From NCBI RefSeq assembly GCF_001368915.1, contig NZ_CSTE01000006.1:62001-126000 (forward strand): a DNA stretch of 64,000 nt, given 5' to 3'. A program made the translations under genes and the position numbers. Source of the stretch: Haloferax massiliensis (GTDB lineage: Archaea; Halobacteriota; Halobacteria; Halobacteriales; Haloferacaceae). This document shows, one piece after another, positions 15,718-16,824 of the stretch. Numbering within the stretch: the first letter of the stretch is position 1; every line of letters begins with the position of its first letter. Under the pieces are notes generated by a model that had not been told where the DNA came from, ran no database searches, and saw only the letters and a list, made by a program, of their open reading frames with translations.

Positions 15718-16824
15718 ATGAGCGACACGCGACGCGCCCTCCTCGACGCACTCGCCGCGGGCCCCGTCTCCGGGCCCGACCTCGCCGACCGACTTGGCGT
15801 CTCCCGCGCCGCGGTCTGGAAACACGTCGAAGCACTCCGCAACGAGGGGTTCGGCGTCGAGAGCGCCGACGACGGTTACGTCGTCACCGACGTCCCGGAG
15901 TACGGCGGCCCGGCAATCGAGTACGGCCTCGGCGTCGACTACGACGTGGAGTTCCACGAGACGCTCGACTCCTCGAACGACCGCGCCCGCGAACTCGCCG
16001 CCGAGGGCGCGAGCGACGTGGTCGTCGTCGCCCGCGAGCAGACCGCGAGCCGAGGCAGGAAAAGCCGGGAGTGGTCCGCACCGGACGGCGGCGTCTGGAT
16101 GAGTCTCCTCGTCCGTCCCGACGAACCGCCGGCGTACGCCCCGCTGTACACGCTGGCGATGGCCGTCGCCGTCTGTGACGCGGCGCGCGAGGCCGGGGTT
16201 GACGCGAGCATCAAGTGGCCGAACGACGTTATCGTGAGCGAAGCGAACGATAACTCATCTGACTCGTCAGAGTCAGATGTAGTTGCCACGAGCGAAGCGA
16301 GTGGCAGTTCGTCTGCGAACGCAGACGGTATTTCCGCGAGCGAAGCGAGCGGGGGCGCACCGGCTCACGCCGGTGACAGTTCGAACGACGCCGACCCGCC
16401 AAACAGCCGCGGCTACCGGAAGCTCTGCGGCGTCCTCACCGAGATGGAAGGCGAGGCCGACCGCGTCTCGTGGCTCGTCATCGGTCCCGGAATCAACGTC
16501 AACCTCGACCCCGCGGACCTCCCCGAGGGCGCGACGAGTGTCGCCGCGGAAGCGGGTCCCGTCGAGCGCCGCGTGTTCGTCCAGCGGGTGCTCGAACGCT
16601 TCGACGAACTGCGCGGCGACCTCGACGCCGTTCTTCCGGCGTGGCGCGAGCGGGCGGACACGCTCGGCAGGCGGGTCCGCGTCCACACCGCGAGCGGCGT
16701 CATCGAAGGAGAAGCAGTCGATATCGAACACCCCGGCACGCTCGTCGTCCGAACCGACGAGGGCGAAAAACGAGTTCACGCCGGCGACTGCGAGCACCTG
16801 CGCCCGGCCGACGTCGGGCGCTGA
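15718..16824 (+). CDS. birA: Biotin--[acetyl-CoA-carboxylase] ligase with in-frame hairpin-array insert
   Basis: 368 residues. An N-terminal winged helix (1-60, SRAAVWKHVEALR) resembles the DNA-binding domain of bifunctional BirA. The ligase core has ETLDSSND, the GRKSREW loop (GRGRRGR-type biotinyl-AMP loop) and SIKWPNDV; after an insert it resumes with KLCGVLTEME and GPGINVN. The C-terminal SH3-like domain covers about 315-365. Residues ~173-231 are a Ser/Ala/Asp/Glu-rich insertion in the loop where other BirA proteins go from KWPND to K-L-G within a few residues. It is encoded by the hairpin array described separately. The target is the PccA carrier domain encoded next door. Confidence 0.93.
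   Translation: MSDTRRALLDALAAGPVSGPDLADRLGVSRAAVWKHVEALRNEGFGVESADDGYVVTDVPEYGGPAIEYGLGVDYDVEFHETLDSSNDRARELAAEGASDVVVVAREQTASRGRKSREWSAPDGGVWMSLLVRPDEPPAYAPLYTLAMAVAVCDAAREAGVDASIKWPNDVIVSEANDNSSDSSESDVVATSEASGSSSANADGISASEASGGAPAHAGDSSNDADPPNSRGYRKLCGVLTEMEGEADRVSWLVIGPGINVNLDPADLPEGATSVAAEAGPVERRVFVQRVLERFDELRGDLDAVLPAWRERADTLGRRVRVHTASGVIEGEAVDIEHPGTLVVRTDEGEKRVHAGDCEHLRPADVGR
16228..16375 (+). repeat. Array of six alternating hairpins inside birA
   Basis: Three type-A hairpins share an invariant 11-nt loop GAGCGAAGCGA. Their stems differ but are each self-complementary: GTTATCGT/ACGATAAC (16228-16254), TGCCAC/GTGGCA (16284-16306) and CCGC/GCGG (16334-16352). They alternate with three type-B hairpins with 4-nt loops: arms CATCTGACTC/GAGTCAGATG (16256-16279), CGTCTGC/GCAGACG (16310-16327) and CACCGGC/GCCGGTG (16358-16375). 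Spacers are one to six bases. All three constant loops are read in the same frame as Ser-Glu-Ala, so the reading frame survives. Confidence 0.9.

Follow-up and report, generated by a model that had tools for sequence, protein, structure and literature searches.

Palindromic elements that invade proteins are best known from Rickettsia. In this system, palindromic repeats (RPEs) lie in frame in unrelated protein genes, where they are borne as extra peptide, and are also found outside genes (PMC10969869; PMC3733652). A much smaller palindrome, a GNA triloop closed by two G-C pairs, forms the exceptionally stable DNA mini-hairpin d(GCGAAGC) (PMC4686876). Both bear on a hairpin array inside the biotin protein ligase gene birA of the archaeon Haloferax massiliensis. 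A literature search returned no haloarchaeal description of the exact loop string of this array or of its hairpin family, a result that does not prove absence. The window analysed is a stretch of 64,000 nucleotides (contig NZ_CSTE01000006.1, positions 62,001 to 126,000), in which the features of interest are the following.

15718..16824, + strand: birA ORF, 368 aa, with HTH, biotin protein ligase catalytic and C-terminal domains (Pfam HTH_11, BPL_LplA_LipB, BPL_C)
16228..16254, + strand: A1 hairpin, arms 16228-16235 and 16247-16254, 8 bp; loop 16236-16246, GAGCGAAGCGA
16256..16279, + strand: B1 hairpin, arms 16256-16265 and 16270-16279, 10 bp; loop gtca
16284..16306, + strand: A2 hairpin, arms 16284-16289 and 16301-16306, 6 bp; loop 16290-16300, GAGCGAAGCGA
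16310..16327, + strand: B2 hairpin, arms 16310-16316 and 16321-16327, 7 bp; loop gaac
16334..16352, + strand: A3 hairpin, arms 16334-16337 and 16349-16352, 4 bp; loop 16338-16348, GAGCGAAGCGA
16358..16375, + strand: B3 hairpin, arms 16358-16364 and 16369-16375, 7 bp; loop tcac
16246..16407, + strand: predicted disordered loop, residues 177-230 (AlphaFold2, pLDDT < 50), with flanking strands at 170-174 and 233-246

The first-pass annotation had reported six hairpins in 148 bp, three of them with the same 11-nt loop. Its coordinates are exact, and the 192 nt between KWPND and KLCG fold as single-stranded DNA into the same six hairpins; one detail is corrected, in that the A3 stem is just 4 bp. 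The array is a tandem repeat with a period of 48 or 54 nt, whose unit consists of one loop-capped A hairpin and one short-loop B hairpin. As had also been claimed, the insert keeps the frame, and the ORF is open through the whole array. The 5' arm of A1 is made of the codons of a VIV beta-strand. AlphaFold2 predicts the ligase around the insert well and places the insert between two strands, where residues 177-230 presumably form a disordered loop. The hairpins of the array are not due to chance. The DNA fold reaches -44.3 kcal/mol (z = -3.64), a value equalled by 0 of 200 shuffles, and the hairpin content of 38 bp is reached neither in 2000 codon shuffles (0/2000, maximum 27) nor in 2000 synonymous recodings (0/2000, maximum 37). 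For stem content the array ranks first among 17,157 windows of 150 bp drawn from 864 kb of the genome. The loop 11-mer occurs three times in the window against 0.22 expected, and all three occurrences lie inside the array.

The 11-nt loop is itself folded. Its form, GA-NN-GNA-NN-GA, comprises tandem G-A mismatches, two base pairs and a GNA triloop; GA...GA is the defining feature of the cap class. Units were picked by the loop alone, from 126 distinct birA inserts of haloarchaea. In 48 units the two inner bases of the cap paired, and 37 of the 48 had four or more flanking Watson-Crick pairs, as against only 1 of 11 units with unpaired inner bases. The inner pairs seen are GC/GC, AC/GT, GT/AC and GG/CC, and the triloop is GNA in 46 of the 50 in-frame units with stems. 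Glu in the triloop is always encoded by GAA (41/41), compared with 24% GAA among Glu codons in the rest of birA, and where Gly or Ala replaces it the codons are GGA and GCA, both rare. ViennaRNA parameters do not separate GNA from other triloops in DNA, so that they give no comparison of DNA and RNA cap energies. Two inserts (L034 and L038) contain nested hairpins in which the cap triloop is apparently swapped for a further hairpin, for instance GAGC[AGCACGCCAGAGCGTGCT]GCGA in L038.

Comparison across haloarchaea, together with the units picked by their loop and the codon nulls, supports the annotation's statement that structure is conserved and sequence is not. The alignment that it had proposed, with absence of the insert in relatives as the question, came out differently: the longer birA loop is found in 15/15 Haloferax species, so H. 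massiliensis has no new insertion, and it is the modules that differ. The loop measures 60 to 270 nt, with A and B modules varying in number and order; two Haloferax species have little or no hairpin in birA, and the sister species G003 and G005 have loops of 60 and 132 nt, respectively. In several genera A units mostly recur every 48 or 54 nt, and the first A hairpin is present in birA of other genera and families too. Stems at the A1 position in these are GTTATCGT/ACGATAAC, GTGATTGT/ACAATCGC, GTCCTCGT/ACGAGGGC, GTTCTCGT/ACGAGAAC and GTCGTCGT/ACGACGGC. From genus to genus, covariation is seen in the two base pairs of the cap as well as in the outer stems; orthologous copies differ in their GNA centres and in their stems. 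Among 17 distinct sequences 97.1% of stem cells are paired; the covariation score is 0.416 against 0.196 +- 0.022 in shuffles (0/500 as high) and at most 0.113 in slid versions, for sequences that are related and not independent. Between relatives, compensated multi-base differences (undated) are seen in the arms, and the BirA tree requires 10 or more changes of the hairpin trait.

Complementary flanks also surround the loop motif at other places in the genome and in the class, the point on which the first-pass annotation had staked its reading. A covariance model of the A hairpin (R1) was built from the window and from family members, whose own matches are by construction. At E <= 1 this model matches 15/15 Haloferax genomes, 15-44 times each; at E <= 0.01, with rough calibration, one match or more is present in 95 of the 97 genomes searched in the class. 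A model-free control over 1.66 Mb gives the same picture: the real cap carries 12 stems that reach 6 bp or more, and four permuted loops carry 0, 0, 1 and 0; such stems flank 12 of 125 GNA loops and 6 of 3056 non-GNA loops. Sequence was read in stretches totalling 2.0 Mb, from two genomes. The copies examined outside birA are mostly intergenic, their coding status being judged by simple ORF criteria. A B hairpin follows the A hairpin on its 3' side at 18 of 53 non-birA sites (2 in shuffled sequence), and a 5' hairpin is found at 10 of the 53. The feet of the A stems are variable, and CGTC begins only some B hairpins. A genus-wide search with the array itself yields only short matches outside birA, of about 15-65 bp.

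By eye, some non-birA copies adjoin tRNA-end-like sequences. Capped hairpins lie between direct repeats of the tRNA-end-like TGGACTCGCGGGG at several loci (L345-L351, L375, L381, L392), and the outer arm is complementary to TGGACTCGCGGGG in some of them. At others (L355, L362, L370, L372, L373) the elements lie between inverted T-arm-like sequences, e.g., GATTTGAAC / GTTCAAATC; as a general feature such flanks were rejected, since of 20 flank pairs of this kind in 1.66 Mb just 3 enclose a capped hairpin. Upstream of a tRNA-Gly-like gene (L411-L417, G000:C2 about 1098686), capped hairpins accompany repeats of the tRNA 5' end GCACCGGTG, an arrangement kept in several Haloferax. The capped hairpin at the centre of L386 lies in a possible 538-aa frame (VPASEASGS) and is perhaps another coding copy.

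Coding copies of the A hairpin are established in two genes only, birA and a gene for an aldo/keto reductase. The latter is common to 15/15 Haloferax. G003 and G005, which are sister species, are alone in having a 54-bp in-frame insert in it, and in the other 13 orthologues the site CGCGACGGC/GAGCG is still empty. The A hairpin of this insert matches a birA module in 27 of 30 bases, one base-pair change being compensated, and the second hairpin of the insert pairs perfectly in G005. The insert shows no evident target duplication and its arms are not copies of the target. Copy number also varies 3' of a conserved gene that is Elp3-like by eye (a 40-residue piece of its product gave no Pfam match), where 0, 1, 2 or 3 units are found depending on the species. 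These units (L396-L410; G000:C2 about 327768-327885) stand in tandem and measure about 91 bp each. Each repeats the last 20 or so bases of the gene (TACGTGTCGAAGCGGCTGTAG) and carries TTTTTGGTCCAGATTTTTG, the capped hairpin and GGAAAAAGGTGGG, with GAA, GGA, GCA or GTA as triloop. The first-pass annotation's idea of a palindromic element tolerated in protein surface loops is thus largely right, given the disordered loop and the second coding copy with its empty site; the self-propagation that it had added was not demonstrated, nor was mobility by a dedicated enzyme, and the coding copies showed neither a transposase nor a duplicated target nor a terminal signal.

We consider it probable that the birA array represents in-frame tandem copies of a hairpin element dispersed throughout Halobacteria, kept by foldback or template-switch copying and by unequal recombination. 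The unit, about 50 bp long, is an A hairpin capped by GA-NN-GNA-NN-GA, often followed by a short-loop B hairpin. Its home is mostly intergenic, and in birA it occupies a turn between two beta-strands of the ligase that tolerates frame-preserving inserts. Because the cap is stable in single-stranded DNA, exposed strands would fold back at these sites, and synthesis by foldback or template switching, one arm being copied from the other, could make and repair perfect stems of any sequence around the fixed cap. Perfect stems of ever-different sequence around a fixed structured cap are what such copying is expected to produce. Template switching can create and maintain hairpins (PMC8794818), and some human polymerases extend stem-loops from two terminal base pairs (PMC11292364). 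Duplication and unequal recombination between units, aided by their identical loops, would change number and order; recombination within the loops would account for the module shuffling and for the few Haloferax units that are chimeras, with two stem types joined within the loop. The chimeric A units also hint at template switching, although mispaired ones persist in Haloferax birA, so correction would not be immediate. In one species pair the B1 loop is inverted (gtca vs tgac, which are reverse complements) between the same 10-bp arms on both sides, a pattern also described for template switching in genes of yeast (PMC8604942). This is only suggestive, as a single case whose chance is about 0.05 for one such inversion in 14 loop pairs, and no template-switch event was caught between strains. 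New sites would be reached rarely; the arms of the aldo/keto reductase insert do not copy the target, and local foldback by itself therefore fails to account for that insert. The family, its covariation, the variation in copy number and in presence or absence, and the coding insertion are all observed, whereas we infer that the copying takes place at the DNA level and that the array has no function in birA.

The main rival to foldback or template-switch copying is a role in RNA, because the cap lies on the sense strand where this is clear, i.e., in birA and at the Elp3-like site. Selected as RNA, the hairpins would act in mRNA and 3' regions on termination, processing, translation or stability, and the array would preserve such structure in the birA message. 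T-stretches such as TTTTTGGTCCAGATTTTTG adjoin the intergenic copies, and in H. volcanii hairpins lie 5' of some termination sites, one of which was shown to terminate in vivo (PMC7237163). The stem mismatches on the sense strand lean the same way, G.T outnumbering A.C by 13 to 6 (p = 0.17, not significant), so that together with the sense-strand cap they would fit an RNA role too. Selection on RNA nevertheless seems unlikely to be the explanation, given that array size in Haloferax spans 60 to 270 nt, that two species have little or no hairpin, that mispaired units persist and that the state changes 10 or more times on the BirA tree. GNA caps are, moreover, exceptionally stable as DNA (PMC4686876), and no Rfam family exceeded its gathering score; the best, CC3552 (29 bits vs a threshold of 50, minus strand, E = 0.019), was set aside as an identity for that reason.

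Less probable still, and in our judgement improbable, is a non-autonomous transposable element for which some enzyme, e.g., a Y1/HUH transposase, would use the A and B hairpins as the ends of the unit of about 50 bp. The 54-bp insertion in the aldo/keto reductase gene is clean, the genome has a Y1 transposase gene, and PATEs, known from halophiles, have near-terminal palindromes (PMC3119063). However, the copies are alike in structure and not in sequence, and some intergenic units include a copy of the end of the neighbouring gene, unlike an IS605-type insertion. A link to the resident transposase was sought and not found: the only Y1_Tnp (IS200/605-type) locus of the genome has no GA-NN-GNA-NN-GA caps, and its palindromes, ACCAGAAC-acgccgc-GTTCTGGT and CGCCAGA-cgtaa-TCTGGCG, are built differently from the A and B hairpins. 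Finally, the array might be an ordinary low-complexity acidic loop, complementary through codon use (Val GTC vs Asp GAC) with no nucleic-acid cause. That codon complementarity partly favours the A1 stem, and hairpin-free BirAs often have 5-6 of 8 complementary positions at the A1 site. This reading may explain a weak A1-like stem in a few species, but for the whole array it is refuted by the codon-shuffle and synonymous nulls, the covariation, the rare triloop codons GAA/GGA/GCA and the intergenic copies, which leave it hardly any credibility.

The preferred reading, dispersed copies kept by foldback or template switching, can be carried a step further, to a claim that is possible but doubtful: a class-wide archaeal repeat whose heritable identity resides in a folded single-stranded DNA cap and not in a sequence, a cap which might self-prime foldback so that copies write their own stems and spread between genes, and occasionally into proteins, with no dedicated transposase. 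What is found is an archaeal class with a structure-defined hairpin repeat in nearly every genome searched, based on a DNA cap whose stability was known in vitro. This repeat has entered at least two proteins and, in an enzyme of core metabolism, has given rise to a hypervariable loop; a DNA-level repeat is thus repeatedly written into working proteins, to which it adds a floppy loop. Haloferax is genetically tractable, which opens two questions to direct test: the origin and upkeep of perfect inverted repeats, and the conversion of non-coding repeats into protein sequence.

Among known systems, REPs tagged with CGTC or GTAG are likewise short hairpin repeats, mostly intergenic, sometimes in genes and often paired (PMC3733652), but the haloarchaeal A hairpin has no constant GTAG or CGTC foot and no linked RAYT was seen. 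PATEs, which are IS605-related, are halophile repeats that are likewise short, bear palindromes and lack a transposase gene (PMC3119063); their palindromes resemble IS605 ends, whereas the A and B hairpins are unlike those at the Y1_Tnp locus examined. By the features tested, the element is neither a tagged REP nor an IS605-derived PATE. In coding DNA of Nematomorpha mitochondria, palindromes consist of almost perfect inverted repeats that come and go between species, and for which template switching has been proposed (PMC6649704); there both arms encode conserved protein, whereas the haloarchaeal arms lie in a disordered loop around a fixed cap and occur between genes as well. With RPEs the element shares in-frame copies in unrelated protein genes (here birA and the aldo/keto reductase gene, the only two found) and dispersal between genes. 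It differs from them in its archaeal host, its tandem array in one gene, the apparent rarity of its coding copies and its unit of about 50 bp rather than about 150 bp; its copies share only cap and pairing while the arms vary, and the sequence relatedness of RPEs is absent. The element therefore behaves like these protein-invading palindromes but lacks their size and sequence similarity. The birA cap holds precisely the d(GCGAAGC) motif (PMC4686876), which is known from oligonucleotides and here caps a genomic repeat, with G-A mismatches and covarying closing pairs.
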